Below, in pieces: positions 1,945-25,800 of a DNA stretch of 33,946 nucleotides. This DNA comes from Nitrospiria bacterium (GTDB taxonomy: Bacteria; Nitrospirota; Nitrospiria; JACQBZ01). The stretch's first letter is position 1, and each line of letters begins with the position of its first letter. The position numbers and the translations under genes were made by a program. The stretch covers positions 1 through 33,946 of the forward strand of contig DATKAN010000063.1 in assembly GCA_035498035.1 (NCBI GenBank), given 5' to 3'. Under the pieces are notes generated by a model that did not search any database, was not told the DNA's origin, and saw only the letters and a list, made by a program, of their open reading frames with translations.

Positions 1945-2600
1945 TCACGCTTCGGTGTGCCTTATAATCTTCCCCTCGACCAGGTAGACCACCAGCTCGG
2001 CGATGTTGGTGGCGTGATCGGCGATCCGTTCCAGGTATTTGGAGATGAAGCTGATCCGGATCGCCCGGGTCGTGGTCTGCGGGTCCTCGATCATGAAGGA
2101 CAGGAGCTCGCGAAAGATCTGATGGTTCAGATCGTCGATCACGTCATCCGCCTTGCAGACGCTTCGGGCCAGCTCGGAATTCCGGTTGACGAAGGCGTCG
2201 AGGGACTCCTTGACCATTCGCAGGGCCTCCTGGGCCATCCGCGGAATATCGATGTAGGGCTTGAGCTGCGGCTCCTCGTTCAACTCGATGGACCGCTCCG
2301 AGATGTTCTCGGCCAGATCGCTCATGCGCTCCAGCTCGGTCGAGATCTTCATCGCGGTCGTGAGAAAACGGAGGTCCCCCGCCATGGGTTGGTGGAGGGC
2401 GATGAGCCGCAGACAGTCCTCGTCGATCTGGACGTCCATGGCATTGACCCGGTGGTCGTTCTCGATCACGTGCCGGGCCAGATCGGTGTCCCGTTCCACC
2501 AGGGCCTTGATCGCGTTGGTGATCTGCTCCTCGACCATGGCCCCCATCCGGAGGATTTTCTCCTTGAGCGTCGCGAGTTCTTCGTCAAAATGGCGCTGCA

Positions 2601-2601
<1 letters not shown>
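1945..2601 (-). CDS. phoU: Phosphate-specific transport accessory regulator PhoU
   Basis: Cytoplasmic protein of 218 residues that links the Pst transporter to the PhoR sensor and keeps the Pho regulon off when phosphate is plentiful. It contains two tandem PhoU three-helix-bundle domains (about 8-95 and 110-200). Each has the acidic metal-binding signature of the family: ELERMSDLAENISE in the first and YLERIADHATNIAE in the second. The start at 2601 gives MQRHFDEEL, the standard PhoU start, and its ATG overlaps the TAA of pstB by one base, so the two are translationally coupled. A longer reading frame upstream is out-of-frame pstB sequence and was not used. It is the last gene of pstSCAB-phoU. 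Confidence 0.97.
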
Positions 2602-3362
<761 letters not shown>

Positions 3363-3373
3363 GAACCGGTTTT

Positions 3374-4222
3374 CTACCCTTTCAATTGGCGATGCAGCAG
3401 CAATCGGGACAGGATGTTGGCCCCCAGGACCAGCATCAGCAGAACCATCCCGGCCGCCCAGGCCTGACGGTGCCAATCGTCATAGGGCGCGATGGCGTAG
3501 GTATAGATCATGACCGGCAGGGAGGCGATCGGCTCAAGCCATCCGCGGCTCCAGAACCGGTTGCTGAAGGCCGTGAACAGCAACGGGGCCGTCTCCCCGG
3601 CGACACGCGCCAAGTCTAACATAATTCCGGTCACGATGCCACGGAAGGCGGTCGGGATCACGATGAAACTGACCACCTTCCATTCCGTAAGCCCCAGCGC
3701 CAGCCCGGCCTCGCGGATCGAGGCCGGAACCAGTTTTAAAAATTCCTCCGAGCTTCTCACCGCGATCGGGATCATCATGATTCCCAGGGCCACTCCCCCG
3801 GCCAGGGTGGAGAAATGGCCCATCGGCAGCACCACGACGGTGTAGGCGAAGATCCCCATGACGATCGAGGGGATGCCGTTTAAGATATCGGCGGCATACC
3901 GGATCAGAAAACCGGCGGTGTTTTTCCGGCCGTATTCCGAAAGGTAGACCCCGCCGAGAAAGCCGATCGGAACGCCGATCAGGCTCGCCAGAAGCAGGAG
4001 CTTCACGGTTCCCACGATCGCGTTGGCCATCCCCCCGCCCGTCTCCCCGACCGGCTTGGGCAGCCGGGTGAAGAAGTCCCAGTCCAGGGCCGCAAATCCG
4101 TTATAGGTAATGTAGCCGAGAATGAAAAACAAAACCGCCAGGACCAACGCGGTGCAGACGGCCGTCAGGGTAAGCATGACGATGTTGGTCAGCCGGCGAT
4201 GGGCCAAAAGGACGGAGTTCAT
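3374..4222 (-). CDS. pstA: Phosphate ABC transporter permease PstA
   Basis: Inner-membrane permease subunit of 282 residues that forms the phosphate channel with PstC. Six hydrophobic segments are visible. The EAA-type cytoplasmic loop that contacts PstB reads [24 protein letters not shown] at about 169-192, and the [14 protein letters not shown] stretch typical of PstA follows. The start ATG overlaps the pstC stop as ATGA (4219-4222), so translation is coupled. Confidence 0.96.
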
Positions 4223-5151
4223 TCCCTCACCTCGACCTTCGTGAAGACCTGGTAAATCATCAGTCGGGCCAGCGCATTGACCAGGATGGTGACGGCAAAG
4301 AGGACCAGTCCGATCTCGATCAGGGCCTGGAGGTACATGTCCGAGGTGGCTTCGGTGAATTCATTGGCGATGACCGCGGCCATGGTGTAGCCCGGCTCAA
4401 AAAGGGACAGCTTGATCTCGGGACGATTGCCGATCACCATGGTCACGGCCATGGTTTCACCCAGGGCACGGGCCAGCGCCAGAAAAATCGAGCCCATGAT
4501 TCCGGATCGGGCGTAGGGAAGCACCGCGATCCGGACCATCTCCCACTTCGTCGCCCCCAGCGAAAGGACCGCCTCCCGTTGGGCCAGCGGCACCGCCATC
4601 AAAATTTCCCGCGAGACGGAGACGATGAACGGGACCACCATGACGGCGAGCACGATTCCGGCCGTGAGCATTCCCACCCCGTAGGGGGCGCCCTGGAAAA
4701 GCGGCAAAAATCCGAGCGTGCCCGAAAGCGCCGGCTCCAGATGGTTGCGGACCCAGGGGACGAGCACGAAGATCCCGGCCAGCCCGTAGATCACGCTCGG
4801 AATCGCGGCCAGAAGCTCGACCAAAAACGTGACGGGGTCGGAAAGCCAACGGGGCGCGAGCTCGGAAAGAAAGATCGCGACCCCCAACCCGACCGGAACC
4901 GCGATCAGGAGGGAGAGCGCCGAAGTGACCAGTGTTCCGTAAAGAAACGGAAGGGCGCCGAACTGCTCCGCGACCGGGTCCCAGGTCGTCCCCCAAAGAA
5001 AAGACCATCCGAACTTCTGGATCGGCAGACGCGAATTCCAGAGCAATTCATAGGCGATGACGCCCGTGATCACCAGGACGGACAGGGCCACGGTCAACAC
5101 CGTGGCCCTGAAAAGACGGTCGGCCGGGCTGACGCCCGGCCGACCCGCCAT
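4219..5151 (-). CDS. pstC: Phosphate ABC transporter permease PstC
   Basis: The second permease subunit of the phosphate importer, about 310 residues with six predicted membrane spans. It carries the EAA-like loop QREAVLSLGATKWEMVRIAVLP and the PstC hallmark ALGETMAVTMVIGN. The start at 5151 (MAGRPGVSPADRLFR) lies 16 bases after the pstS stop. The longer frame that begins inside pstS encodes a basic stretch unlike any PstC N-terminus and is an artefact of the overlap. The ribosome-binding site is weak, consistent with coupling to pstS. Confidence 0.96.
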   Translation of the reverse strand: MAGRPGVSPADRLFRATVLTVALSVLVITGVIAYELLWNSRLPIQKFGWSFLWGTTWDPVAEQFGALPFLYGTLVTSALSLLIAVPVGLGVAIFLSELAPRWLSDPVTFLVELLAAIPSVIYGLAGIFVLVPWVRNHLEPALSGTLGFLPLFQGAPYGVGMLTAGIVLAVMVVPFIVSVSREILMAVPLAQREAVLSLGATKWEMVRIAVLPYARSGIMGSIFLALARALGETMAVTMVIGNRPEIKLSLFEPGYTMAAVIANEFTEATSDMYLQALIEIGLVLFAVTILVNALARLMIYQVFTKVEVRE

Positions 5152-5167
5152 CGTCAAACTGAAGGGA

Positions 5168-6208
5168 CTAATACTTGATCTTGCCAAGCGCTTTCTCCTC
5201 CATGGCCACCACTTCTTTCGGAAGCGGCGCATACAGAAGGCCCGGAGCAAACTTCTGGCCGTCCGTCATCATCCATTTCAGAAATCCCGTGATCGCCTTT
5301 CCTTTCTTCGGATCGTCGATCTTTTCCGGAATCAGGAGCCAGGTGAAGCTCGCGATCGGATAGGTCTCCGGACCCGGGGCGTTCGTGATCGAGACCCGGA
5401 AGTCGGCCGGCATTTCCTTGGCCGCACCGGCCGCGGCATGCGTCACCGACTCGAGACTGGCCTTGACGAACTTGCCCGCCGAATTCTGGACCACCCCGTA
5501 ATCGATCTTGTTCTGGGCGGCGTAGATCAGCTCGACGTAACCGATGGAGTAGGGGGTCTGCTTCACCAACCCGGACACCCCTTCGTTTCCCTTCCCGCCC
5601 AAGCCGACCGGCCAGTTGACCGAAGTTCCTACGCCGACCTTCTCCTTCCATTCCGGGCTGACCTTGGAAAGATAGTCGACCCAGATATAGGTCGTCCCGG
5701 AACCGTCCGAGCGGTGGACCACGACGATCTGTTTGTCCGGCAGATTCACGCCCGGGTTGATTCCCGCGATGGCGGGATCGTTCCATTTCGTGATCTTCCC
5801 GAGAAAGATATCGGCCAGGTTCTTCCCGGTGAATTTGAGCTCGGCGGTGACCCCAGGAATATTATAGGTGGGAACATCCGCGCCCATCACGGTCGGGAAA
5901 TGGAGCAGGAAAACCTTCGCCTTCTGGAGCTGTTCATCGGTCATGGGACCGTCCGACGCTCCGAAATCGACCGTCAATTCGGAGGCCTGCTTGATCCCCC
6001 CGCCGGAACCGATGGACTGGTAATTGATGTGAACATCCGGATGCATCTTGGCGTACTCGTCAAACCATTTTGAATAGATCGGATACGGGAAAGTGGCCCC
6101 CGCCGCGTTGATCAGCATCGTCTCGGCCCAGGCCGGCGCCGCCAGGCCGATCACCATAACTAGGATGACGGCCTTCATCCCGAATAATTTTTCCTTAAGT
6201 ATGCGCAT
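5168..6208 (-). CDS. pstS: Periplasmic phosphate-binding protein PstS
   Basis: Captures phosphate in the periplasm and delivers it to PstCA. It is 346 residues. The N-terminus is a signal peptide (basic MRILKEK, hydrophobic core, cleavage after AWA at about residue 28), so this is a soluble periplasmic form rather than a lipoprotein. Family landmarks are INAAGATFPYPIYSKW, the phosphate-loop region YQSIGSGGGIKQ, DFGASDGPMTDEQL, the VVHRSDGSGTTYIW block and GNEGVSGLVKQTPYSIGYVELIYA. A strong AAGGAGG lies just upstream of the ATG at 6208, and a four-unit Pho-box array with a -10 element lies just beyond that. First gene of pstSCAB-phoU. Confidence 0.97.
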   Translation of the reverse strand: MRILKEKLFGMKAVILVMVIGLAAPAWAETMLINAAGATFPYPIYSKWFDEYAKMHPDVHINYQSIGSGGGIKQASELTVDFGASDGPMTDEQLQKAKVFLLHFPTVMGADVPTYNIPGVTAELKFTGKNLADIFLGKITKWNDPAIAGINPGVNLPDKQIVVVHRSDGSGTTYIWVDYLSKVSPEWKEKVGVGTSVNWPVGLGGKGNEGVSGLVKQTPYSIGYVELIYAAQNKIDYGVVQNSAGKFVKASLESVTHAAAGAAKEMPADFRVSITNAPGPETYPIASFTWLLIPEKIDDPKKGKAITGFLKWMMTDGQKFAPGLLYAPLPKEVVAMEEKALGKIKY

Positions 6209-6222
6209 AATAGAACCTCCTT

Positions 6223-6277
6223 ATTATAAATATTCTCTTGTTACATCCATGTTACGTCCGTATCACATCCGCGTTAA
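6223..6277 (-). promoter_or_regulatory. Pho-box array and -10 region of the pstS promoter
   Basis: Reading toward pstS on the minus strand there are four adjacent 11-bp direct repeats (6267-6277, 6256-6266, 6245-6255, 6234-6244) starting TTAAC, GTGAT, GTAAC and GTAAC; three share a (C/T)GGA(T/C) tail. Eleven-bp head-to-tail repeats are the known binding pattern of PhoB-type winged-helix regulators. An A/T-rich stretch with TATAAT (6223-6228) follows, and no good -35 hexamer is present, as expected when PhoB replaces it. This is the clearest of six such arrays in the window. Confidence 0.8.
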
Positions 6278-6294
6278 ATCCAGTGGCCCACGGA

Positions 6295-7569
6295 CTAAAA
6301 CTTGACCGAAAAATCAAGCTGGATCCGGTTAAATGACGGATTGGGATTGCTCCCCGGAACCGCCGTCGTCGCCAGGTCCTTCTTGATCATCTTCGTGTTG
6401 AAATATTTCAGCTTTACCTGAGTCGCGCTCGTGAAATTATAGGCCGCCCAGAGGGTGTGCCCCTTCCGGTTGGTGCCGCCGTTCGGGCCGAAATCCGAAT
6501 CGTTCAGATCGGCCAATGTGGCATCCGCCTCAATCGCCCGATACTCGTAGGCCACCTCATAGGTGTTCGCGGCACTGGCGTTTCCGAGTTTAATCGCGGC
6601 TCCAAACCCCGTATCCTGGTTTTTGATACTGGGAGAGGTTTTCTGAACCGTGTCCTGTAGATTCTTTATCCCATCGAATGAAATCAGGATGGGAAGTCCG
6701 GCATTGAACTTGAGGGCGGCCGTCAAATCCACGACACTGAACGGATTGGCCAGGCAATTTGAAGATGCGGGAGTGGTATTGCACGCCCTTCGCGTGTTTC
6801 CATCCTGAAAAACCGCGGAGTTAAAATTCGTTTGTTGCCCGTTCGCAAGCGTGTATAGAAGCGCAGCCACATTAAATCCGATTTGGTCCATCTTCATCTC
6901 GGTTCCGATCTGCTCCCCGAGAAGCCATTGGCCATTCTTGCTGCCGGCATCGGAACTCTGGCCTCCGTCCAGGATGATCTGGCCCAGGTTTACAAAAACC
7001 TTTTGATTGTCCCCAAGCTTCAGGGCATACTGCTGGGCAAATCCTTCGGGATTGAGGTCGTCGTCAAATACGATCTCTCCGGTGGGCCAGTTGATAAAGA
7101 AAGGGTTGGTCATCTTCCCGCCCAGGACGTTGAGATCGGGAATCTGCTTCAGTTCGACATAGGCTTTGTCGATGAAGATGGCCTTTCCGGAAGAATTGCT
7201 CTGCATCGTCTGGTTGGTCGAGACCTGCTGCCCGGATCCCGAGGCCACCCGGAAATGCACGAAGGTTTTGCCTTCCTGAATATCCGCCCCGATCCGTAGA
7301 CGGAATCGCTGGCGATTGAGATCCTTCGAGTTGTTGGAATTTCCCGGATACCACATCGTCTCTTCCCGAAGGCGGATGTCGCCGTATAAGGTAATCTTGT
7401 CGATGAAGGGGACGATCTCCCGCTTCTGAAGCGAATCGGCCTCTTCCTTTGTAATGGTCCCTTTCTTGATCAACAAATCCGTCAGATCATCCGCGGCCTT
7501 CACGGGCAGCGGCAAAAGAAAACCAACAACGATTGCCAAAATCAGGCTCTTCAAATGGGACATCTTCAT
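6295..7569 (-). CDS. Outer-membrane porin, probable phosphate-regulated channel
   Basis: A 424-residue beta-barrel protein. It has a signal peptide (MKMSHLKSLILAIVVGFLLP, cleavage after VKA at about 25). A short helical segment follows (DDLTDLLIKKGTITKEEAD), the N-terminal module common in the putative-porin (Porin_5-like) family. The remainder is alternating hydrophobic/polar strands such as ITLYGDIRLREE, FVHFRVASGSG and LWAAYNF, ending in the aromatic outer-membrane insertion signature FSVKF. It ends 86 bases before pstS. Its own upstream region has a Pho-box array shared with a 28-residue ORF, so it is likely induced by phosphate starvation and may admit phosphate. Substrate is inferred from context only. 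Confidence 0.85.
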   Translation of the reverse strand: MKMSHLKSLILAIVVGFLLPLPVKAADDLTDLLIKKGTITKEEADSLQKREIVPFIDKITLYGDIRLREETMWYPGNSNNSKDLNRQRFRLRIGADIQEGKTFVHFRVASGSGQQVSTNQTMQSNSSGKAIFIDKAYVELKQIPDLNVLGGKMTNPFFINWPTGEIVFDDDLNPEGFAQQYALKLGDNQKVFVNLGQIILDGGQSSDAGSKNGQWLLGEQIGTEMKMDQIGFNVAALLYTLANGQQTNFNSAVFQDGNTRRACNTTPASSNCLANPFSVVDLTAALKFNAGLPILISFDGIKNLQDTVQKTSPSIKNQDTGFGAAIKLGNASAANTYEVAYEYRAIEADATLADLNDSDFGPNGGTNRKGHTLWAAYNFTSATQVKLKYFNTKMIKKDLATTAVPGSNPNPSFNRIQLDFSVKF

Positions 7570-8673: not shown

Positions 8674-8964
8674 ATGGCACTCTTGGACAATGGTTTCAGG
8701 GGCAATCTGTTGACGGGGCTTGCGATCGGGATCGGGGCCGCCATTTTAGCGCCGGTCGTTATACCCGCGGTGGCTGCCGTGGCCAAACCCCTGGCCAAAG
8801 CCGCTCTTAAAGGGGGGATCCTGCTTTACGATCGGGGCAAGGAGGCCGTGGCCGAAGCGGGCGAGGTGATCGAGGATCTCATGGCCGAGACCAAGGCCGA
8901 AATCGCGGAGGCCCGTAAAGAAGCCGTCACTGTGGCGGAAACACAAAGCGGAACAAATAGCTGA
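8674..8964 (+). CDS. DUF5132 family membrane-associated protein
   Basis: A 96-residue protein with one long Gly/Ala-rich hydrophobic segment at about 10-40 (LLTGLAIGIGAAILAPVVIP), then a short basic linker and a charged alternating helix (AEAGEVIEDLMAETKAEIAE) likely to lie along the membrane or form a coiled coil. This matches DUF5132 proteins, which often sit beside HMA_2-type proteins and P-type ATPases. Function unknown. AAGGAGG lies 7 bases before the ATG. The TGA overlaps the next gene's ATG (TGATG), so the pair is coupled. Confidence 0.82.
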   Translation: MALLDNGFRGNLLTGLAIGIGAAILAPVVIPAVAAVAKPLAKAALKGGILLYDRGKEAVAEAGEVIEDLMAETKAEIAEARKEAVTVAETQSGTNS

Positions 8965-9515
8965 TGCTTCCTGAGGCTTACATCACCCATGCCACGAAAG
9001 GCCGGGTCAGGTTTAAGATCCCCTCAAAAAAAGGGAACCGGGCCTTTTTTTCGGCTCTGAAAGATAAACTGCCCCCTTCCGGCGAAATTCCAGGGGTTCA
9101 ACGAATCGAGATGAATCCGGCCACGGGAAGTGTCCTTATCGTTCATGATCTGGATTTCAAGGCGATGGATTTGACGATATTCTCCGGCCATCTTGAGCAG
9201 ATGGGTCTATTTAAACTCAGGGCGAACGGTATCCCCGGAACCCCCGTATCCCAGAATATCGCCAGGACGTTTAAAGGGGTCAATCAACAGATTAAGGATT
9301 TCACGAGCGGGGAGGTCGATCTCCAATCTCTGGCCTTGCTCGGCCTGCTTGGTCTTGGGCTCTATCAGATCAGCCGCGGGCAGTTCATGATCCCTGCCAT
9401 TTCAGCCTTTTGGTATGCCGCCACACTCCTGAAGGAAGGAGAGATACTTAAAGAAGAAGGAGAGATACTTAAAGAATTCAGGAAGGATCAACCGGCACAA
9501 AAAAGGAATCAATAA
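8964..9515 (+). CDS. HMA_2-like domain protein with membrane segment
   Basis: 183 residues. The N-terminal 80 form a ferredoxin-like fold of the HMA_2 type: THATKGRVRFKIP starts the first strand, GVQRIEMNPATGSVLIVHD gives the later strands. The CxxC metal motif of classical heavy-metal domains is absent, so copper-type binding is not expected. After a linker, residues 122-148 are hydrophobic (LALLGLLGLGLYQISRGQFMIPAISAFWY), probably a hairpin or one to two membrane spans. The acidic C-terminus contains a two-copy repeat (GEILKE) from a DNA duplication. It overlaps the DUF5132 gene by one base; the two products probably work together. Confidence 0.8.
   Translation: MLPEAYITHATKGRVRFKIPSKKGNRAFFSALKDKLPPSGEIPGVQRIEMNPATGSVLIVHDLDFKAMDLTIFSGHLEQMGLFKLRANGIPGTPVSQNIARTFKGVNQQIKDFTSGEVDLQSLALLGLLGLGLYQISRGQFMIPAISAFWYAATLLKEGEILKEEGEILKEFRKDQPAQKRNQ
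9435..9476 (+). repeat. Perfect 2 x 21-bp tandem repeat within the HMA_2-like gene
   Basis: Bases 9435-9455 and 9456-9476 are identical, in frame, and encode two copies of the heptad EGEILKE. Seven-residue units in a charged helix suggest the duplication lengthens a C-terminal amphipathic or coiled-coil helix without breaking the frame. Copy number may vary between strains. Confidence 0.9.
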
Positions 9516-9543
9516 TCAACAATCAAAAACCTGGAGGTCTAAG

Positions 9544-10203
9544 ATGTCAGCAGAACAGATCCAAAGTGGAGTAGAAGAAAAGATCGGCAAGGCCGGAACC
9601 ACGGTTAGAACAGGCATCATCGGCAGCCTGAAAGGACTCAATGACATCGAGACCGAGATCGTGAGTCTCGTCAGAAATACCGTATCCGACACCCTTAAAG
9701 CCACCGGAACGGTCGCGAACGAAGGCCTCGTTGTGACAAAGGACGTGATCAAGGGGGCCATCCAGGCCTCCGAAGAGGTCGGCACCGGTCTGATTTTGAG
9801 CACAAAGAGCGTGGCGAAAGGCGTGGTGATGGGGGTGAACGATGTCGGCGGCGACATTGTAACGGCCGCCGGGCATACTGTCAAAGTCGCCGTGAAGGGC
9901 GCGGCCGATGTCGGGGCGGACGTTTCCCAGGTTGCCCGAAAGGCCGTGGACGGAACCATTGAGGCCGCGAAGGAGATCGGCGGGGATGTCGAACATGTCA
10001 CGAAAGCGGCTGTCGGGGGAGCGATCGAGGCGGCCGGCTCAATTGGAAAGACCGCCGTCCGAACCGTCACGGATTTGCTCGTCGGCGTAGTGGAAGGGGT
10101 AAAAGAGGTGGCCACCGCCGCTTTACCGACAACCCGATCCAAACCCGCCGGAAAAGAGGGCCGAACGGGAGAGAGCGCCCCGAGAGCTCGTGGGAAAAGT
10201 TAA
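9544..10203 (+). CDS. Protein of 22-residue amphipathic helical repeats (apolipoprotein/phasin-like)
   Basis: 219 residues, cysteine-free, no signal peptide. From about residue 43 to 196 it consists of seven tandem 22-residue units in exact register, each close to the pattern (T/A)K.AV.GAIEAA..IG.DV..V. Successive units begin at about 43, 65, 87, 109, 131, 153 and 175. Such units, rich in Ala/Val/Gly with regularly placed Lys, Asp and Glu, are expected to form long amphipathic helices lying on a lipid or granule surface, as in apolipoprotein A-I, perilipin-like proteins or phasins. The N-terminus (1-42) is a separate helix; the C-terminus is basic and disordered (RSKPAGKEGRTGESAPRARG). A GGAGG sequence lies just before the ATG. 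Family not recognised; the resemblance is structural, not proof of homology. Confidence 0.8.
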   Translation: MSAEQIQSGVEEKIGKAGTTVRTGIIGSLKGLNDIETEIVSLVRNTVSDTLKATGTVANEGLVVTKDVIKGAIQASEEVGTGLILSTKSVAKGVVMGVNDVGGDIVTAAGHTVKVAVKGAADVGADVSQVARKAVDGTIEAAKEIGGDVEHVTKAAVGGAIEAAGSIGKTAVRTVTDLLVGVVEGVKEVATAALPTTRSKPAGKEGRTGESAPRARGKS

Positions 10204-10231
10204 GCCCAACCAATTTGAATAACGATAATCG

Positions 10232-13200
10232 ATGGGGGCCTGCGAGAACCCTGTGGTCCAAACCGTTCATACCGCGGTAAAAGGCCGGGCCAGGTTTAAG
10301 GTACTTGGGCTTTACCGCTCCGAGGCGCTTAAACGGCGGCTTGAATACAGCCTGTCAAATTTCGATGGGATCAGTCAGGTCTCCGCCAGCGCCCTCACCG
10401 GAAATGTTCTAGTCGTCTTCAATTCCGGCGCCACTCCCCTCCAGATCGCCTCCCTGATCGTTGCGATCGCCTCCTCGTCTCATCCAGATAAGAATCATCA
10501 AAGCCCGACTTCGACGGATCCTCCGGATCCGAAGGAAGGGGAGGCCCCGCCCTCGAATCAAAATCCACTGGCATCCGTCGGAAAGCGGCTGGCCGATCTT
10601 CTGCCTCATCGGAAGGAGATCGAGGCCCAGCCGTGGCATCTGATCGAAGCGGACCGGATTATCGTCTCGCTGAAGACATCCCGGTCCTCCGGCCTGTCCG
10701 AAGTAGCCGCGACTGACCAACTGCGTCAATACGGCCCGAACCTCCTTCCCGAAGCGGTTCCCCGGTCTGCGTTCGGCATTTTTATCGACCAGTTCAAATC
10801 GCTGCCCAACCTCCTTCTGGGCACGGCCGCCGGGCTATCGATCGTCACGGGGGGGGTGTCGGATGCGGTGATCATCCTGGGAGTGGTCATCATCAACGCC
10901 GCCATCGGTTACGCCACGGAAAGCCAGGCCGAAAAAACGATTCAGTCGCTCAAGGGCATGGTCCGACCGAGCGCGACCGTGATCCGGAACGGGAAATCAC
11001 GGGAGATCAAGGCCGAAAGCATCGTGATGGGAGATATATTGGTTCTCAGACCCGGCAGTTACATCGCCGCCGATGCGCGGCTGGTCGAGGCCCAGCAGAT
11101 GTACGTGGATGAGTCGGCGCTGACCGGCGAGAGCGTTCCGGTTCTCAAAACCTCCGCCCCGATGACCGCCGAAAATCTGCCCCTGGGTGATCGGCTCAAC
11201 ATGGTCTACATGGGGACCCTGGTGACCGGAGGCCAGGCACTGGCCGTCGTCGTCGCCACCGGAAAACAAACCGAGATGGGCCGCATCCAGATCTTATTAG
11301 GAGAGGCGGAGTCGCCCGAGACCCCGATGGAACGTCAACTCGGCCGGATGAGCAACCGGCTGGTCCTGATCAGCACCACCGTGTGCGGCCTGGTCTTCGG
11401 CATCGGCCTGCTACGCGGGCAAGGCCTGCTGCATATGCTCAAGACCGCCATTTCCCTGGCGGTCGCGGCCGTGCCGGAGGGGCTTCCCACCGTGGCCACG
11501 ACCACGCTGGCGCTGGGCATTCGCAATATGAAACGTCACCATGTCTTGATTCGCCACCTGGAGGCGGTCGAAACCCTCGGCGCCGTTCAGACGATCTGCC
11601 TGGACAAAACCGGAACGATCACCCTGAACCGGATGTCGGTGGTGGAGATCCATGTCGGCGAAAAGCGGATCCAGGTCTCGGACGGTCGATTCCGGTCGGG
11701 CGAGGAGGCCATCAACCCCTTCGCTTTGGATGAGCTGTTGAGGATGATTCACGTTTGCGCCCTTTGCAACGAGTCCGCGGCAGTCCTGCAAGGGGGAGAA
11801 TATCTTTTGCAAGGCTCACCCACGGAGAACTCCCTTCTCCAGATGGCGATCAGCTCCGGGGTGGATGTATTGAAACTGCGGGAACGGTATCCGATCCTTC
11901 AAGTGGGCCACCGTTCCGAAAATCGGAATTTCATGAGCACCCTGCATATCTCGGCCGATACCGAGGCCACGGGACCCCTCCATCTCCTGGCCGTCAAGGG
12001 AAACCCGGTCGAGGTACTGGGCCTGTGCCGCTACCGCATGAACAACGGGCAGATACTCCCGTTGACCGACGAGGACCGTTTGAAGATCCAGACGGAAAAC
12101 GAAGGCCTCTCGGGCCAGGCGCTTCGCGTTCTCGGGATTGCCTACGGCCTCTTGCATCCCGAGGAGGCGGGATACGGCAAGGGGCTGATCTGGCTGGGCC
12201 ATATCGCAATGGCCGATCCCGTCCGGAAAGGAGTCAAAGAACTTATCGGGGATTTCCACCGGGCCGGCATCGAAACCGCCATGATCACCGGGGACCAGAG
12301 CTCGACCGCCTACGCGATTGGAAAAGAACTGGCCCTCAGCGGCGATCGGCCGCTTTCGATCCTGGACTCGACCCACCTGACCGATGTCGCCCCGGAGGCG
12401 ATCATCGGGATTTCAAAACAGGTCCATGTGTTCGCAAGGGTCAGCCCCTCCCACAAACTCCAGATTGTTCAGGCCCTGCAGAAGGCCGGGAGGGTCGTGG
12501 CGATGACCGGGGACGGCATCAACGACGGGCCGGCCCTCAAGGCCGCCGACATTGGAATTGCCATGGGGCATTCCGGAACGGACGTCGCGCGCGAGGTGGC
12601 CGACGTGATCATCGAGGACGACAACCTGGAAACGATGATCCTCGCCGTCAGCCACGGCCGGACGATCTATAACAATATCCGGAAGTCGGTGCATTATCTT
12701 CTGGCGACCAACATGAGCGAGATTATGGTCGTCTCCGGAGCGATCTCGTTCGGACTGGGCGAGCCATTGAATTCCATGCAACTGCTTTGGATCAACCTGA
12801 TGTCGGACGTTTTCCCGGCCTTGGGGCTGGCGCTGGAACCGCCGGAACCCGACGTGCTGAGCCGGCCTCCGCGAAACCCCGAGGAGCAGATCGTTCAGTT
12901 ATCCGATTTTAAGCGAATCACCTCGGAAGCGGCCGTCCTTTCGGCCGGCGCCTTCGGTGCGTATGGCTATGGGATCCTACGATACGGGATGGGCCCGAAG
13001 GCCAGCACCCTGGCCTTCACGAGCCTGACGGTGGGACAGTTGTTGCACGCACTGAGCTGCCGTTCCGAAACACACAGCCTGTTCGATCCGATCCGCTCGA
13101 CCGAGGGGCCGCCCTTGCGGCCGAACCCGTATCTCTACTGGGCCATCGGCGGCTCCGTCGCGCTTCAGGTTCTGACCTTGACCATCCCGGGATTGCGGGG

Positions 13201-13348
13201 GCTGCTGGGCCTTACACCCGTCGGTCTTTTGGACGGGTTCGTGATCGGGGGGACCGCGGCCGTTCCCTTGCTCGTCAATGAAATGACCAAGGGGAAGACG
13301 ACCCGTTTCCCGCATCCGGAACCCGAGAAACCGGGAGGGGCTCCATGA
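10232..13348 (+). CDS. P-type cation-transporting ATPase (calcium-type, P2) with N-terminal HMA_2-like domain
   Basis: 1038 residues, an inner-membrane ATP-driven cation pump. The N-terminus (about 10-85) is an HMA_2-like domain (AVKGRARFKV ... LTGNVLVVFN) without CxxC. After a Pro/Asp-rich linker comes a standard P2 ATPase: cation-ATPase N domain (about 130-195), actuator loop with YVDESALTGESVPV, M4 motif AAVPEGLPT, phosphorylation motif CLDKTGTIT, nucleotide domain, and hinge MTGDGINDGPALKAADIGIAMG. M6 reads LLWINLMSDVFPALGLALEPPE, close to calcium pumps. PEGLP in M4 and the polar Asn/Asp in M6 suggest Ca2+ or possibly Mn2+, rather than Cu or Zn (no CPC). The C-terminus has four hydrophobic segments. 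The ATG has a poor ribosome-binding site. The stop overlaps the next start (ATGA). Confidence 0.93.
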   Translation: MGACENPVVQTVHTAVKGRARFKVLGLYRSEALKRRLEYSLSNFDGISQVSASALTGNVLVVFNSGATPLQIASLIVAIASSSHPDKNHQSPTSTDPPDPKEGEAPPSNQNPLASVGKRLADLLPHRKEIEAQPWHLIEADRIIVSLKTSRSSGLSEVAATDQLRQYGPNLLPEAVPRSAFGIFIDQFKSLPNLLLGTAAGLSIVTGGVSDAVIILGVVIINAAIGYATESQAEKTIQSLKGMVRPSATVIRNGKSREIKAESIVMGDILVLRPGSYIAADARLVEAQQMYVDESALTGESVPVLKTSAPMTAENLPLGDRLNMVYMGTLVTGGQALAVVVATGKQTEMGRIQILLGEAESPETPMERQLGRMSNRLVLISTTVCGLVFGIGLLRGQGLLHMLKTAISLAVAAVPEGLPTVATTTLALGIRNMKRHHVLIRHLEAVETLGAVQTICLDKTGTITLNRMSVVEIHVGEKRIQVSDGRFRSGEEAINPFALDELLRMIHVCALCNESAAVLQGGEYLLQGSPTENSLLQMAISSGVDVLKLRERYPILQVGHRSENRNFMSTLHISADTEATGPLHLLAVKGNPVEVLGLCRYRMNNGQILPLTDEDRLKIQTENEGLSGQALRVLGIAYGLLHPEEAGYGKGLIWLGHIAMADPVRKGVKELIGDFHRAGIETAMITGDQSSTAYAIGKELALSGDRPLSILDSTHLTDVAPEAIIGISKQVHVFARVSPSHKLQIVQALQKAGRVVAMTGDGINDGPALKAADIGIAMGHSGTDVAREVADVIIEDDNLETMILAVSHGRTIYNNIRKSVHYLLATNMSEIMVVSGAISFGLGEPLNSMQLLWINLMSDVFPALGLALEPPEPDVLSRPPRNPEEQIVQLSDFKRITSEAAVLSAGAFGAYGYGILRYGMGPKASTLAFTSLTVGQLLHALSCRSETHSLFDPIRSTEGPPLRPNPYLYWAIGGSVALQVLTLTIPGLRGLLGLTPVGLLDGFVIGGTAAVPLLVNEMTKGKTTRFPHPEPEKPGGAP

Positions 13349-14538
13349 AAGAAGATTTTATGTTCACATCCGAATCGGTGACCGAGGGTCATCCCGATAA
13401 GCTCTGCGATCAGATCAGCGACGCGATCGTGGATCGCTTCCTTCAGCAGGATCCTTACGCGAGCGTGATCGCGGAATGCGCCGTTTCGACGGCGATCGCG
13501 TTTGTCGCCGCCCGGTTTCGTTCGACGGCCACCGTGGATTTCGCCACCGTCGCCCGGGAAGTGATCAGCGGGGTGGGATACGAACACCACGCCTTCAACG
13601 GTCGAACCTGCAGCATCGTGACCAGCCTGGCGGAACTCCCGATGGCCGAGCGGAATTACAGGGACGAATCGGATCTCACCGAACAGGAGCTGGAGCGGAT
13701 GCCCGCCCGAAATCAAGTGACGGTTTTCGGGTTCGCCTGCCGTCAAACGCCGTCCCTGATCCCGCTCCCGATCTGGCTGGCCCACAAACTCGCACGGCAA
13801 CTGACTTCGGTCCGCGTCAAATCAACGCTCCCCTATCTCGCCCCGGATGGAAAAACCCAGGTGGGGATCGAATACCGGAAACGGCGGCCCTACCGGATTC
13901 ACAGCCTCACCGTGATCGCCAGCCAGAATCGGCCTTCGGAACCCGACCTCAAAAAGCTCACCGAGGACATCCGGGAGACGGTCATCGGGCCCGTCTTCTC
14001 CGACGAACCGATTCGCCCGGACGATCAAACCCGGATCTTCGTCAATCCGGACGGTCCCTTTATTGTCGGCGGTCCTTCGATCCATTCCGGTCTGACCGGA
14101 AGGAAGAACGCCATCGACACCTACGGAGAGTATTCCCGTCACAGCGGCGCGGCCCTGAGCGGAAAAGATCCGACCCGGATCGATCGCGTCGGGGCCTACG
14201 TGGCCCGATACGCGGCGAAAAATGTCGTGGCGGCCGGCATCGCGGAGGAGTGCGAGGTACAGCTCAGCTATTCGATCGGGTCGTCCCGGCCGGTCAGCAT
14301 CCAGGTCCAGACCTTCGGGACCGGGCGCGTCCCGGACTCCGAGATCTCCTCCCGGCTGGAAGAGAATTTCGATTTTCGTCCGGCCGGGATCATCCGGGCC
14401 TTCCGGCTCCGCCATCTCCCCTCGGCCTTCAAAGACGGGTTTTACAGAAAACTGGCGGCCTACGGCCACGTCGGAAGAACCGATATGGATCTTCCCTGGG
14501 AGCGGACCGATCGTACAAACGTTTTCAAAACCGCATGA
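13345..14538 (+). CDS. Divergent S-adenosylmethionine synthetase (MetK) paralogue
   Basis: 397 residues aligning over the whole length of bacterial MetK, which makes AdoMet from ATP and Met and hydrolyses the tripolyphosphate. Kept: SESVTEGHPDKLCDQISDAI (H16, D18, K19), the lysine of APDGKTQV (K160), SGLTGRKNAIDTYGEYSRH (R243, K244), SGKDPTRIDR (K264, D265), and the C-terminal AAYGHVGRTD and PWERTD. Changed: the signature GAGDQGxMFGYA is here MPARNQVTVFGFA, so the conserved Asp (E. coli D118) is Asn123 and both glycines are lost. The second signature GGGAFSGKD is SGAALSGKD. It lies in an operon of transport genes and overlaps the ATPase stop by 4 bases, which is not a usual place for housekeeping metK. 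It may be a specialised or altered-activity enzyme. GGGAGG precedes the ATG. Confidence 0.88.
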   Translation: MKEDFMFTSESVTEGHPDKLCDQISDAIVDRFLQQDPYASVIAECAVSTAIAFVAARFRSTATVDFATVAREVISGVGYEHHAFNGRTCSIVTSLAELPMAERNYRDESDLTEQELERMPARNQVTVFGFACRQTPSLIPLPIWLAHKLARQLTSVRVKSTLPYLAPDGKTQVGIEYRKRRPYRIHSLTVIASQNRPSEPDLKKLTEDIRETVIGPVFSDEPIRPDDQTRIFVNPDGPFIVGGPSIHSGLTGRKNAIDTYGEYSRHSGAALSGKDPTRIDRVGAYVARYAAKNVVAAGIAEECEVQLSYSIGSSRPVSIQVQTFGTGRVPDSEISSRLEENFDFRPAGIIRAFRLRHLPSAFKDGFYRKLAAYGHVGRTDMDLPWERTDRTNVFKTA

Positions 14539-14588
14539 CGGGTTTTCATTATAAAAAATAATAGCGGCTCCAAATGAAGGAGGACATC

Positions 14589-14846
14589 ATGGTGGCGATT
14601 GCGGTCTCGGAAAACGACTCGGAAGAATTTCAAAATCTCTCGAACATTGAGGACCTGGCCCGGGAACTCGGCGCCACCGTGGAGGAGATCCATTTCTATT
14701 ATGAGGCGGCCATGAAGGAATTAAAGCCCAATGCAAGGATCAAGGCCTTCCTGCCGATTCTCGCCGGCCGCCAGGTCCGGGAGATCGTTTTGGAAAAGAA
14801 GATTCGGATCAACGTTCCGGATACTCAGCCCGCTCCGAACGTTTGA
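14589..14846 (+). CDS. Small DUF3562-like protein
   Basis: About 85 residues, soluble, all helical. After an acidic N-terminus it reads NIEDLARELGATVEEIHFYYEAAMKEL and then NARIKAFLPILAGRQVREIV. This resembles DUF3562-type proteins, with a helix-turn-helix-like N-terminal half and the FLPxLxxRxVR motif. Start 14589 was chosen because AAGGAGG sits 5 bases upstream; the upstream in-frame ATG at 14574 has no such site. Role unknown; position suggests an accessory or regulatory part of the cluster. Confidence 0.7.
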   Translation: MVAIAVSENDSEEFQNLSNIEDLARELGATVEEIHFYYEAAMKELKPNARIKAFLPILAGRQVREIVLEKKIRINVPDTQPAPNV

Positions 14847-14858
14847 AGGAGGACCTCG

Positions 14859-15320
14859 GTGAATGGGGTAAACGAAGCGCAACAAACGGTCCCGCCGTCG
14901 GAGCAAACTCCCGCCCCGGAAAAATTGGTGATCAAAAACAACACCGGCGAACGGTCTGTGTTGGCCAAGTGGCTTCGCGGGGGGGCGATCGCGGCCCGAA
15001 TCGTTTTCTTCATCGCCTGCGGGGCCGCCGCCATCATCCTGGAACGACTCCTAGGCCTTTTAAAACCCGCGGACGGCGACCATGCCCGGAGTCTCTCCAC
15101 CCCTTCCGACGGCCGGAAGGTTCGAGGCGGCCCGGAAAGAATCAAAGTGCCGGTGTTCCCGATCGACAACTACAACCACCTGGACGCGAGCCAGGTGATG
15201 AGCCGACTGGCCGGGCTCTCCCGCGAGCAGCTTGGGATGATCCGGTCGCATGAAGCCCGTCAGAAAAACCGGGGAGATGTCCTGGAGGCCATCGACCGTC
15301 AACTCGCGGACGGGCGCTGA
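14859..15320 (+). CDS. Single-span membrane protein with C-terminal helical module
   Basis: 153 residues starting at GTG 14859, with AAGGAGG 5 bases upstream. A polar N-terminus (1-40) precedes one strong membrane span (IAARIVFFIACGAAAIILE at about 44-62). A charged linker follows, then a compact C-terminal module: VFPIDNYNHLDASQVMSRLAG and LSREQLGMIRSHEARQKNRG. That module matches the PI-x2-Y-x2-L-x-A-x-Q-V ... R-L-x-x-L-S-x2-E-L pattern of a short domain (DUF8129-like, name from memory) common in actinobacterial membrane and lipid-droplet-associated proteins. Its stop overlaps the ArsA-type ATPase start (TGATG), so the two are coupled and may interact. Confidence 0.72.
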   Translation: MNGVNEAQQTVPPSEQTPAPEKLVIKNNTGERSVLAKWLRGGAIAARIVFFIACGAAAIILERLLGLLKPADGDHARSLSTPSDGRKVRGGPERIKVPVFPIDNYNHLDASQVMSRLAGLSREQLGMIRSHEARQKNRGDVLEAIDRQLADGR

Positions 15321-16486
15321 TGCGCATCATCCTCTTCACCGGAAAAGGGGGCGTTGGAAAGACGACCCTGGCCGCGGCGACCGCCCTGAAGGCCGCCGCC
15401 TTGGGCCATAAGACATTGGTGATCAGTACGGATGTGGCTCACAGTCTCGCCGACTCTTTGGCCCTCCCCCTGTCCAACGATCCGAGGCCGGTCGGGCCGC
15501 CGGAACTGTTTGCGGCCGAACTCGACACCGGAGAAGAACTGGAACGATATTGGGGCAAAATAAAAAGGCGAATCGCCTCGCTTCTCCAGAGCTCCGGGCT
15601 GGAGTCCGCGATCGCCGGCGAAATGGCCATCCTTCCCGGGCTGGATGAAATCCTGAGTCTGGTTCGTATCAAGAAATATTTCGATGAAGGCCGGTTCGAC
15701 GTCCTGATCATCGACAGCGCGCCGACCGGCGCGGCGATGCGGCTGCTGGGCGCCCCGGATCTCGGCCGCTTATACATCAAAAACATCCTGGATTTTTCAC
15801 GGGGAATCGGCAACGTCTTCGTGCCCTTGCTTCAGGCCTTTCAGCGCAAGTCCGCCACCGAACACAGTGTCCCGGATCAAATCCAGAAGCTGTTCGACCA
15901 GGTCGAGGCCTTGCGGCGCATCCTGGCCGACCCGGCCCTGAGCTCCGTTCGCCTGGTCCTCAATCCCGACCGGATGGCCATTCTGGAAACCCAGAGGGCC
16001 TTCACCTTCTTCAGTTTGTACGGACTGACCGTGGATGCCCTCTTCATCAACCGGGTCCTTCCGCCCCAGATTTCGGACCCCTATCTGACCTCCTGGAAGG
16101 AGAAGCAATCCGATTACCGCCGGATGATCGCCGAGTCGTTCTCACCCCTGACCCCGTTTGAAGTTCCCTTGATGCCGGAGGAAGTGACCGGGATTCCGGC
16201 CCTGACGTTATTGGGCGACAATCTCTACGGCCAGAAAGACCCGGTTCAACGTTTCTCGGAAGCCCAACCCCTGACATTTGAATTGCGAAACGGCGAATAT
16301 ATTTTGTCCCTCCGGCTGGTCGGGGTTCAGGGAAGCGATATCGATCTGGAGAAATGCGGAGACGAATTGCGCGTTCAAGTCGGACGACACAAACGCGCCA
16401 TTGCCCTCCCCCAATACCTGGCCGGGCTGACCCCGACATCGGCCAGCCTGGACGGAGGGTATTTGAAAATCATCTTTAAGGAATAG
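15320..16486 (+). CDS. ArsA/Get3-family ATPase with C-terminal HSP20-like domain
   Basis: 388 residues. N-terminal deviant P-loop ILFTGKGGVGKTTLAAATA, switch I STDVAHSLADSL, and switch II IDSAPTGAAMRLL place it in the ArsA/Get3 dimeric ATPase family. The ATPase domain runs to about 300. The final 80 residues (PLTFELRNGEYILSLRLVG ... LDGGYLKIIFKE) form a beta-sandwich like small heat-shock proteins, the ArsA_HSP20 arrangement known in bacteria and chloroplasts. There is a single ATPase half, not the doubled form of arsenite pump ArsA, and no arsB or arsC nearby, so arsenic export is unlikely. A chaperone or membrane-insertion role is more plausible. The paired CxxC of eukaryotic Get3 is absent. 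Confidence 0.9.
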   Translation: MRIILFTGKGGVGKTTLAAATALKAAALGHKTLVISTDVAHSLADSLALPLSNDPRPVGPPELFAAELDTGEELERYWGKIKRRIASLLQSSGLESAIAGEMAILPGLDEILSLVRIKKYFDEGRFDVLIIDSAPTGAAMRLLGAPDLGRLYIKNILDFSRGIGNVFVPLLQAFQRKSATEHSVPDQIQKLFDQVEALRRILADPALSSVRLVLNPDRMAILETQRAFTFFSLYGLTVDALFINRVLPPQISDPYLTSWKEKQSDYRRMIAESFSPLTPFEVPLMPEEVTGIPALTLLGDNLYGQKDPVQRFSEAQPLTFELRNGEYILSLRLVGVQGSDIDLEKCGDELRVQVGRHKRAIALPQYLAGLTPTSASLDGGYLKIIFKE

Positions 16487-22046: not shown

Positions 22047-24245
22047 ATGGAAAAGGAAAAGAGTCCGACGATCAATCTGGACGCCCCGGAATGGTACCTC
22101 AACCGTGAGTTGACCTGGCTGGAGTTCAACCGGCGCATTCTCAACGAGGGGCTGGACGAACGCACCCCCCTGCTGGAGCGTGTGAAGTTTCTGGCGATCG
22201 TCGCCTCGAATCTGGACGAGTTCTTCATGAAACGGATCGGGGGCCTCAAACAGCAGGCCGGCGCGGGTGTATCGGAGCTTTCGGTCGACGGACGCACACC
22301 CGAACAGCAGATCAAGGAATGCCAGGCGATCGTTCTGGAAATGGAGGATCAACAACGACGCCTCGCCGTCGATCTATACCGCTTGCTGAACCAGGCCGGA
22401 ATTCAGATCAGCCGCTGGGCCGATCTGAGCCGGGAGGACTGCGACGCGGTCCGCGATCATTACGTCCGGAACATCTTCCCCCTGGTCACGCCGCTGGCGA
22501 TCGGACCCGCCCATCCTTTTCCGTTTATCTCCAACCTGTCGCTCAACCTCCTGGTCACGCTCCGGAATCCCGGCGCCGACAAGTCCGATCTGGTCCGGAT
22601 CAAGGTCCCGGTCGGCGGAGAAGTGCCGCGTTTTCTCCAGATCAAAGACCGCTTGCTCTTCGTCCCCCTGGAAGACGTGCTCGCCCAAAATCTCGACCTC
22701 CTCTTTCCCGGAATGCAGATCGAGTCCTGCGAGTTGTTTCGCGTGACCCGCAACGCCATCACCGAGATTCCCGGACATCAGGCCGAAGATCTGATGTCGA
22801 TGGTCGAATCCGAATTGAGGGATCGCAAATTCGCCCCGATCGTCCGACTTGAGATCTCGAAGGGGATGGATCCCACCCGGCGGGGCATGCTCGCGGCCGA
22901 GCTCGGACTGGACGAGGCCACGGACGTGTTCGAGGTGGAGGGACTCATGGCCAAGCGCGACCTCCTTCAGATCGCCTCGTTGAAGATACGGGAGCTCCAC
23001 GATCCGCCGCATCACCCCATCGACCATCCGTTGATCGCCGGCGCCTCGAACATCTTCCATCTGATCCGGGAGCAGGGCCCCATCCTTCTTCAGCACCCGT
23101 ACGAATCCTTCGTCACCTCGGTCGAGCGGTTCGTGAAGGAGGCCAGCCAGGATCCGAAGGTCCTCGCGATCAAAATGACCCTCTACCGTACGGCCGCGGA
23201 GTCCAAAATCATCGAGTACCTGATCGAGGCGGCGCAGAACGAAAAACAGGTGGCCGTGGCGGTGGAGTTGAAGGCCCGCTTCGACGAATCGTCCAACATC
23301 CGGTGGGCCCAGCGCCTGGAGCAGGCCGGCATCCATGTCTCCTACGGCCTGGTCGGACTGAAGACGCATTGCAAAATCATTTTCGTGTTGCGGCGCGACT
23401 ACAACGGGCTGCGCCGTTACGCCCATTTCGGCACCGGGAATTACAACGCGGACACCGCCCGCATCTACTGCGATCTGGGCCTGCTGACCTGCGACCCGGG
23501 CATCGGCGAGGACCTGACCGAGCTGTTCAACTATCTCACCTCCGGAAACGTCCCGGACCGGAAGTTTAGAAAACTGCTGCCCTCGCCCACGGTGTTCAAA
23601 CAGGCCCTCCTCTCCAAGATCGACCGGGAAATCGCGCAACATTCGGAGGGGTCGCCGGGTCTCATCCGCTTCAAAGTCAACGCGCTCGAGGACAAGGAGA
23701 TCACCCGGGCCATCTACCGCGCCTCGCAGGCCGGGGTCAAGGTGGACCTGATCGTGAGAGACACCTGCCGGTTGCGGCCGGGCATTGCCGGCTTGTCCGA
23801 AAACATCCGCGTGGTCAGCATCGTCGGACGCTTCTTGGAGCACGCCCGGATCTACTACTTTCGAAACGGCGGGAATGAAGAATATTATATCAGCTCGGCC
23901 GACTGCATGTCGCACAAACTGCAGCATCGCATCGAGGTGGCGGTTCCGGTGGAGGGATCGGATTTGCGGGAACAGCTCCGTCAAATTCTTGAAATCCAAC
24001 TGACAAACCGGGCGAGCCTTTGGACCATGCAGCCGGACGGAACCTATGTCCGGAGCCAACCCGAACCCGGCGGGGAGATGCGGGGGGTGCAGGAACTCAT
24101 GATCGAGCGGGCCCAAAAACGATTCCAGGCCACCCAACAATCCGGCAATCAAAATCATTCCGGAAAATCCGAGGCCCGAAACAAAGGGGGATCGCCGTCG
24201 CTTGCGGCCGGCGGGTTTAAACGGCGCAAGCGAAGAGGCGTTTAA
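22047..24245 (+). CDS. ppk1: Polyphosphate kinase 1
   Basis: Reversibly transfers the gamma phosphate of ATP onto long-chain polyphosphate. 732 residues, near the usual PPK1 length. N-terminal domain with YLNRELTWLEFNRRILNEG and FLAIVASNLDEFFMKRIGGL, head domain, then two phospholipase-D-like catalytic domains. The first carries the autophosphorylated histidine in VGLKTHCKIIFVLRR and the AHFGTGNYN motif; the second has ARIYYFRNGG and the ISSADCMSH region. The C-terminal 40 residues are polar and basic, beyond the family core. GGGGAGG lies 6 bases before the ATG. Controlled by the Pho-box promoter upstream; it converges on the CYTH-CHAD gene. Confidence 0.97.
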   Translation: MEKEKSPTINLDAPEWYLNRELTWLEFNRRILNEGLDERTPLLERVKFLAIVASNLDEFFMKRIGGLKQQAGAGVSELSVDGRTPEQQIKECQAIVLEMEDQQRRLAVDLYRLLNQAGIQISRWADLSREDCDAVRDHYVRNIFPLVTPLAIGPAHPFPFISNLSLNLLVTLRNPGADKSDLVRIKVPVGGEVPRFLQIKDRLLFVPLEDVLAQNLDLLFPGMQIESCELFRVTRNAITEIPGHQAEDLMSMVESELRDRKFAPIVRLEISKGMDPTRRGMLAAELGLDEATDVFEVEGLMAKRDLLQIASLKIRELHDPPHHPIDHPLIAGASNIFHLIREQGPILLQHPYESFVTSVERFVKEASQDPKVLAIKMTLYRTAAESKIIEYLIEAAQNEKQVAVAVELKARFDESSNIRWAQRLEQAGIHVSYGLVGLKTHCKIIFVLRRDYNGLRRYAHFGTGNYNADTARIYCDLGLLTCDPGIGEDLTELFNYLTSGNVPDRKFRKLLPSPTVFKQALLSKIDREIAQHSEGSPGLIRFKVNALEDKEITRAIYRASQAGVKVDLIVRDTCRLRPGIAGLSENIRVVSIVGRFLEHARIYYFRNGGNEEYYISSADCMSHKLQHRIEVAVPVEGSDLREQLRQILEIQLTNRASLWTMQPDGTYVRSQPEPGGEMRGVQELMIERAQKRFQATQQSGNQNHSGKSEARNKGGSPSLAAGGFKRRKRRGV

Positions 24246-24270
24246 AAAAACCCGCGGGCGGGCCGCCCGA
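24244..24270 (-). terminator. Rho-independent terminator of the CYTH-CHAD gene
   Basis: Immediately after the stop codon on the minus strand, CGGGCG and CGCCCG pair around a 3-nt loop; CGGG then TTTTTTT follow. The run of seven T's (plus strand 24244-24250) overlaps the end of ppk1. The G/C stem and T-run fit an intrinsic terminator, and an alternative CCCGC/GCGGG pairing abuts the T-run directly. Confidence 0.6.
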
Positions 24271-25731: not shown

Positions 25732-25771
25732 TGTGGAGGAAACCTTTTTGATCCGAGCAGCCATCGCGGCC

Positions 25772-25800
25772 ATTCTGACAAAGACGGCATGCCCTGTCAA
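25772..25800 (-). promoter_or_regulatory. Sigma70-type promoter of the CYTH-CHAD gene
   Basis: TTGACA (25795-25800), a 17-bp spacer and CAGAAT (25772-25777) on the minus strand; transcription would begin near 25765. This supports a start codon downstream of the longest reading frame. Confidence 0.55.

Follow-up and report, generated by a model that had tools for sequence, protein, structure and literature searches.

Ferrosome (fez) gene clusters bring together a P-type ATPase, an HMA-type protein and a small hydrophobic protein, and the ATPase concerned, FezB, is of class P1B-6. In mycobacteria, P-ATPases are clustered by PacL (PMC9374683, PMC13043812). Among lipid-surface proteins, perilipin 4 and Plin1-3 are built from 33-residue and 11-residue repeats, respectively (PMC5889406, PMC8064757), and the lysines of Plin4 sit on one side of the polar face (PMC5889406). 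The locus analysed here lies in a 33,946-nucleotide stretch of DNA from a Nitrospiria bacterium, which we refer to as the window, and encodes a 22-residue-repeat protein, REP, that invites comparison with all three.

As in the fez clusters, genes for an ATPase, an HMA-type protein and a small hydrophobic protein are found together; the pump, however, is P2A/PMR1-like and not P1B-6, and a ferrosome assignment was rejected on that ground. The resemblance to the PacL1-3 and DUF1490 scaffolds associated with CtpC/G/V lies in the placement of small proteins beside a P-ATPase and in the architecture of one of these, a DUF5132 protein, in which a transmembrane segment with a Gly motif is combined with a Glu/Ala-rich helix (PMC9374683, PMC13043812). 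REP differs from PacL in having neither a transmembrane segment nor a metal-binding motif, the pump is P2A instead of P1B, and no DUF1490 or DUF6110 match was found in REP or its neighbours, DUF5132 included. With the perilipins, REP shares in-register repeats free of insertions and a 3-11 helix, and with Plin4 it further shares a near absence of aromatic residues, a composition rich in V, G, T, A and K (PMC5889406, PMC8064757) and the one-sided disposition of its lysines. It is set apart from Plin4 by its 22-residue unit, by repeats that are individually specialised, conserved across phyla and packed by AlphaFold2, and by a partner that is an ion pump and not lipid storage. No Perilipin Pfam match was obtained for REP or the homologues searched. 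The apolipoprotein A/E family (PF01442), in which proline separates the 22-mers, likewise has no match in REP, the repeats of which end without proline, and a long REP relative matches it only at E = 0.055. Phasins (PF05597, PF09361) are similarly small, amphipathic, aromatic-poor and free of a signal peptide, but REP falls under the family cut-off and belongs to a genome with no detected PHA synthase. Overall, REP is nearest to PacL in role and to Plin4 in chemistry and, by the tests made, is a member of neither family.

The operon and its pump

REP is encoded within a run of five co-directional genes (8674-14538) in which neighbouring genes overlap or are separated by gaps of 28 bp or less (Table 1). 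The order is DUF5132, HMA_2, REP, P-type ATPase and SAM synthetase.

Table 1. Features of the REP locus, in window coordinates
Feature	Coordinates	Strand	Basis
DUF5132 protein	8674..8964	+	PF17195 E=3.5e-14
HMA_2 protein	8964..9515	+	PF19991 E=1.4e-19
REP (219-aa repeat protein)	9544..10203	+	Stop-free open frame, 22-residue period, purifying selection
Eight in-register 22-residue repeats (REP residues 21-196)	9604..10131	+	Autocorrelation, family alignment, AlphaFold2 helix breaks
REP C-terminal tail, Pro-containing, basic, predicted disordered, not conserved	10132..10200	+	pLDDT <50; homologue tail charge
P2A-type P-ATPase (SPCA/PMR1-like), N-terminal HMA_2-like domain	10232..13348	+	Model scores, SPCA1 alignment
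Divergent second SAM synthetase	13345..14538	+	PF02772 123 bits, alignment
DUF3562 small protein	14574..14846	+	Recurrent neighbour, present in 11 loci
153-aa protein and ArsA/Get3-like ATPase	14859..16486	+	Co-directional; absent from other REP loci

The arrangement recurs. Counting loci with enough flanking sequence, the ATPase gene lies immediately 3' of REP, in the same orientation, in 54 of 56 informative loci, DUF5132 and HMA_2 genes lie upstream in 47 of 51, and a SAM synthetase gene lies downstream in 23 of 25. DUF5132 is present in 29 of the 35 genomes with a strong REP match and in 18 of the 361 others (Fisher p = 6e-26; 396 genomes). REP and pump distances are correlated (r = 0.82), a correlation that shared ancestry alone would also yield. 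Several genomes (L105-L108, L110) have the cassette of DUF5132, HMA_2, P2A ATPase and SAM synthetase but no REP in it; REP therefore looks inserted between the HMA_2 and pump genes, and the pump does not need it. Conversely, REP occurs without the pump at loci L018, L040, L079 and L122, as do longer 22-mer relatives at L073 and L074. In Nitrospiria, DUF5132 and HMA_2 go instead with a heavy-metal P1B ATPase, from which we conclude that both small proteins are a general accompaniment of P-ATPases. Heavy-metal P1B ATPases were present in all 15 genomes of the presence/absence search.

Several further features of these neighbourhoods were recorded. At L102 and L104 (Nitrospiria genomes G061 and G090), the P1B ATPase beside DUF5132 and HMA_2 has N-terminal HMA_2 domains, and at L104 some 1.6 kb separate the cassette from PPK1. 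Several genomes have one more small HMA_2-like protein, of about 125 residues, encoded next to the cassette (L105:2399-2770, L106:6164-6571 and L082:10506-10892). The window has, beside the cassette, a phosphate-uptake (pst) operon and, farther away, genes for PPK1 and a CYTH/CHAD protein (1945-7569; 22047-25800); PstS is encoded upstream of REP in five other loci. The 153-residue protein (14859-15320) has a hydrophobic segment and weak, sub-threshold similarity (E=0.023) to the model of a lipid-droplet protein from mycobacteria, and the ArsA/Get3-like ATPase encoded after it carries an HSP20-like domain.

The best models for the operon ATPase are of the PMR1/SERCA type (596 bits), the P1B model TIGR01525 giving 250 bits, below its cut-off. 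Its closest solved relative is human SPCA1, and it retains the DKTGT motif (D458), the Glu of M4 PEGLP (E416) and the M6 Asn/Asp residues N855 and D859. On these sequence features, the enzyme is assigned to the P2A (SPCA/PMR1-like) class. The pumped ion would presumably be Ca2+ or Mn2+, the score lying under the curated equivalog cut-off of TIGR01522. A resemblance to HMA_2 extends over the first 80 residues of the ATPase. The free HMA_2 protein, whose gene overlaps that of DUF5132 by 1 bp, consists of a ferredoxin-like HMA_2 domain with a hydrophobic C-terminus. No conserved Cys and no CxxC was found among 27 HMA_2 sequences, so that a classical metal-chaperone role is unsupported; REP itself has no Cys/His motif, and we rejected metal chaperoning as the function of either protein. 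The DUF5132 protein, of which no mention was found in the literature searched, has one hydrophobic GxxxGxG segment (maximum 19-residue Kyte-Doolittle mean 2.4) beside its Glu/Ala-rich helix. The operon SAM synthetase scores lower against PF02772 than the two other copies in the genome (179 bits) and lacks the GAGDQG loop present in both, GHPDK and SGKDP being kept. The change in this loop is common to operon SAM synthetases from several phyla.

The repeats of REP and their predicted packing

Comparison of REP with its nearest same-genus relative reveals 16, 11 and 85 substitutions at codon positions 1, 2 and 3 over 195 codons, a pattern showing that the plus-strand frame is under purifying selection. 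Autocorrelation confirmed the 22-residue period that had been noticed in the sequence: against composition shuffles, z is 9.2, 6.1 and 5.9 at lags 22, 44 and 66, the 99.9th percentile of the shuffle maximum across all lags being 4.25, and lag 22 still stands at z = 6.4 if shuffling is confined to residues of the same class, hydrophobic or polar. The earlier note had read seven repeats, from residue 43 to residue 196, with an additional period of 11. The exact register and the absence of insertions hold, but the register begins at residue 21 and accommodates eight 22-mers; lag 11 gives a weak signal (z = 3.1) that is fully accounted for by the binary hydrophobic pattern, so that the 11-residue sub-period is a hydrophobic pattern only. 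The strongest component of the hydrophobicity spectrum is at 98.0-98.5 degrees, equivalent to 11/3 residues per turn, with an amplitude of 0.355, the 99% level of shuffles being 0.208. The moment of the whole core is 0.32 at 98.2 degrees and 0.05 at 100 degrees, and the hydrophobic face is coherent when REP is drawn as a 3-11 helix, a strict 22-residue repeat giving such 98.2-degree coherence for a continuous and a broken helix alike.

REP contains no Cys, Phe, Trp or Tyr, and 31 of its 219 residues are Gly. There is no transmembrane segment (maximum 19-residue Kyte-Doolittle mean 1.2) and, by inspection, no signal peptide. The lack of cysteine and of a signal peptide noted previously is thus upheld for REP; most homologues are also without Cys, and some have it. 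The basic tail described at the same time is a property of this protein (+5 over the last 30 residues) and not of the family, in which tail charge ranges from -2 to +9.

Relatives of REP, 46-72% identical, are encoded in 32 named loci from MAGs labelled Nitrospirae/Thermodesulfovibrionales, Methylomirabilis, Syntrophorhabdus, Geobacteraceae, Brocadia and others, and within the phylum 41 of 396 genomes have a match at E<=1e-6, 35 of these being strong. No Pfam or NCBIfam family covers REP, and sequence searches of solved structures gave no meaningful match. A plasmid-borne gene was discarded for want of any plasmid match, and a phage origin because there were just two weak PHROG matches, one of them to a tape-measure protein, and viral fold matches all had E >= 0.19. 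Longer 22-mer relatives are found at L073:6566-7519 and L074:7109-8065 and in genomes G254, G264 and G307, with no nearby P-ATPase; they contain more 22-mers than REP and have about 317 residues where read, with frames of up to 420, and those at L073 and L074 have mechanosensitive-channel and ATP-grasp genes nearby. Orphan REP copies at L079 and L082 adjoin exopolysaccharide export/chain-length genes.

The core of REP (residues 15-195) has no missing residue in 27 aligned homologues from several phyla. Each repeat is about 74% identical to the same repeat in other species and 22% identical to the other repeats of its own protein, and the units are therefore old and individually fixed. The best-conserved part in the 27 homologues is the hydrophobic/Gly face at 229-33 degrees, where entropy is 0.37-0.61, as against 0.74-1.02 on the polar face; Gly occupies position 6 in 75% of cases and Gly or Ala position 10 in 94%. 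Lys/Arg cluster at 98 degrees and Asp/Glu at 196 degrees, on opposite sides of the polar face. To judge from the alignment, this gapless, repeat-specific conservation goes beyond the needs of a loosely adsorbing helix, and REP is under much tighter constraint than a generic helix that adsorbs to lipid.

In the AlphaFold2 model of REP (27 sequences; mean pLDDT 75.6, pTM 0.65), helices break roughly every 22 residues, most of them at a repeat boundary, with pLDDT of about 90 across residues 90-180 and the final two repeats merged into one long helix. The model of the Undibacterium homologue (L040, 46% identical; pLDDT 77.9, pTM 0.69) has eight separate helices, every one of which breaks at a repeat boundary. 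For both models, the designed protein DHR4 (5cwb) is the closest solved structure, with TM values of 0.56/0.61 and 0.55/0.64 and an rmsd of 3.3-3.7 over about 175 columns; DHR4 is artificial and 15-17% identical to REP, and the likeness is a fold analogy only. The models predict, with moderate confidence, a side-by-side antiparallel helical-repeat solenoid and not a single extended helix, close to the compact fold that the earlier note had named as counting against a lipid-surface protein.

If the helices pack as a solenoid, the hydrophobic face would be buried and lipid contact would not be required. REP could then be a self-folding soluble alpha-solenoid, an adaptor or regulator that docks onto the HMA_2-like N-terminal domain of the pump, or onto the SAM synthetase, free of lipid. 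Both models and their designed match point this way, as do the gapless core, the contrast between same-repeat and cross-repeat identity and the strong conservation of the hydrophobic/Gly face. However, so much glycine with no aromatic residue is unusual for a stable solenoid, the composition is Plin4-like, homologues occur in lipid loci, and the models were built on 27 related rows only; we regard such an adaptor as the second most likely reading, though on balance unlikely. The prediction of packed helices may also be compatible with lipid binding, and amphipathic lipid-binding repeats may be modelled as packed too.

Lipid chemistry and storage granules

As a 3-11 helix, REP has a hydrophobic moment of 0.32-0.34, with hydrophobic, aromatic and charged fractions of 0.45, 0.00 and 0.22. 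The corresponding values are 0.257, 0.35, 0.002 and 0.15 for Plin4 and 0.35, 0.37, 0.01 and 0.23 for Plin3 (PMC5889406), a comparison that is approximate, the REP moments being on the Fauchere-Pliska scale. REP combines the attributes of a perilipin-like helix, namely a long 3-11 amphipathic character, few aromatics and asymmetric charge, and its biophysics fall approximately in the perilipin range. Gene context adds to this in two cases. The Undibacterium MAG homologue (L040:6131-9526) is encoded directly between a WS/DGAT gene and one for an acetoacetyl-CoA-reductase-like SDR; a phasin gene lies upstream, and patatin and acyl-CoA synthetase genes are near by. The other homologue, which belongs to the same order, adjoins genes for an acyl-CoA synthetase, a fatty-acyl-reductase-like protein, an aldehyde dehydrogenase and a lipase-like protein. 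A search of 399 genomes of the order gave no others beyond these two betaproteobacterial homologues, which lend real but thin backing to a possible lipid-surface binding. The earlier proposal of a lipid-surface protein is therefore chemically reasonable, the repeat-specific conservation and the packed predicted fold being set against it; its extension to the coat of an internal granule is not borne out by the conserved context, in which the partner is the P2A ATPase cassette.

A phasin- or perilipin-like coat on PHA, neutral-lipid or polyphosphate bodies would be in keeping with the helix parameters, with the two lipid loci, with sub-threshold Phasin_2 and Senescence matches among REP members and with the PPK1 and CHAD genes 12-16 kb from REP in the window. 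Nevertheless, we consider it unlikely and rank it third, behind a pump scaffold and the soluble adaptor. In REP the Phasin_2 match covers a single 38-residue stretch at 19.1 bits against a cut-off of 24.9, a weak phasin match is seen in 5 of 27 members, and weak Pfam matches differ between members and include the unrelated GCIP_N and LacI. PhaC was undetected in 16 of 18 REP genomes, among them that of the window (PhaC_N not found; completeness 98.96%), and a PHA phasin was rejected on this and on the Pfam score. A TAG or wax coat was rejected because WS/DGAT, not detected in the window's genome, was found among the REP genomes tested in Undibacterium only, and a polyphosphate coat because PPK1/CHAD genes were not found beside REP in about 60 other loci, many with short flanks.

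Repeats of 11/22 residues rich in A, G, T, K and E are also reminiscent of LEA group 3 and alpha-synuclein-like proteins, and several genomes have extra orphan REP copies, as might a general stress or membrane-protection protein that is a chance passenger of the operon; the strict operon linkage, the gapless conservation across phyla and the lack of any LEA or synuclein Pfam match for REP or the homologues searched make this very unlikely. That REP is a chance amphipathic pattern or non-coding artefact, the true gene being an overlapping open minus-strand frame of 208 aa, is already refuted by the codon-position pattern and by conservation of the plus-strand frame in more than 40 genomes.

A putative scaffold for a P2A-ATPase membrane domain

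The repeat, the predicted fold class, the operon and the class of the pump are computational results. Beyond these, we tentatively favour, at somewhat less than an even chance, the reading that REP is a peripheral scaffold or coat for a membrane domain containing the P2A ATPase, for which we infer membrane binding, pump contact and lateral assembly. REP would be cytoplasmic, its eight amphipathic helices packing as a helical-repeat sheet or solenoid that lies on, or organises, a patch of membrane. The single-pass DUF5132 protein and the HMA_2 domains, both free and at the N-terminus of the pump, would concentrate pump molecules in the membrane; REP would bind this face of the membrane or the cytosolic HMA_2-like domain of the pump and assemble laterally via the conserved Gly/Ala face and the Lys/Glu edges of its repeats. 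The outcome would be a pump platform or a pump-bearing compartment. We prefer a scaffold because of the operon linkage, the association of REP with DUF5132, the correlated distances and the P2A assignment, and because of the Plin4-like amphipathy and charge, the homologues in lipid loci and the PacL-parallel architecture of DUF5132. The case is weakened because the cassette occurs without REP and REP without the pump, and the burial of the hydrophobic face expected of a packed solenoid also counts against it, as does the absence of a DUF1490/DUF6110 match for DUF5132.

A more far-reaching version, which we think improbable, would make REP the coat or scaffold of an undescribed membrane compartment or raft holding a P2A Ca2+/Mn2+ pump together with its own SAM synthetase, ferrosome- or acidocalcisome-like but with another pump class and a perilipin-like repeat, and spanning, as part of the same claim, Nitrospirota, anammox planctomycetes, Methylomirabilis and deltaproteobacterial groups.

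The five-gene cassette occurs widely among uncultured bacteria of the subsurface and of the nitrogen cycle. Should REP organise the P2A pump on the membrane, the idea of P-ATPase platforms that came from PacL would extend to a new pump class and to new phyla, with a concrete gene set for testing. If it binds lipid monolayers, to which the gene surroundings of the betaproteobacterial homologues point, it would be a bacterial perilipin-like helix naturally split between lipid-storage and ion-pump use.
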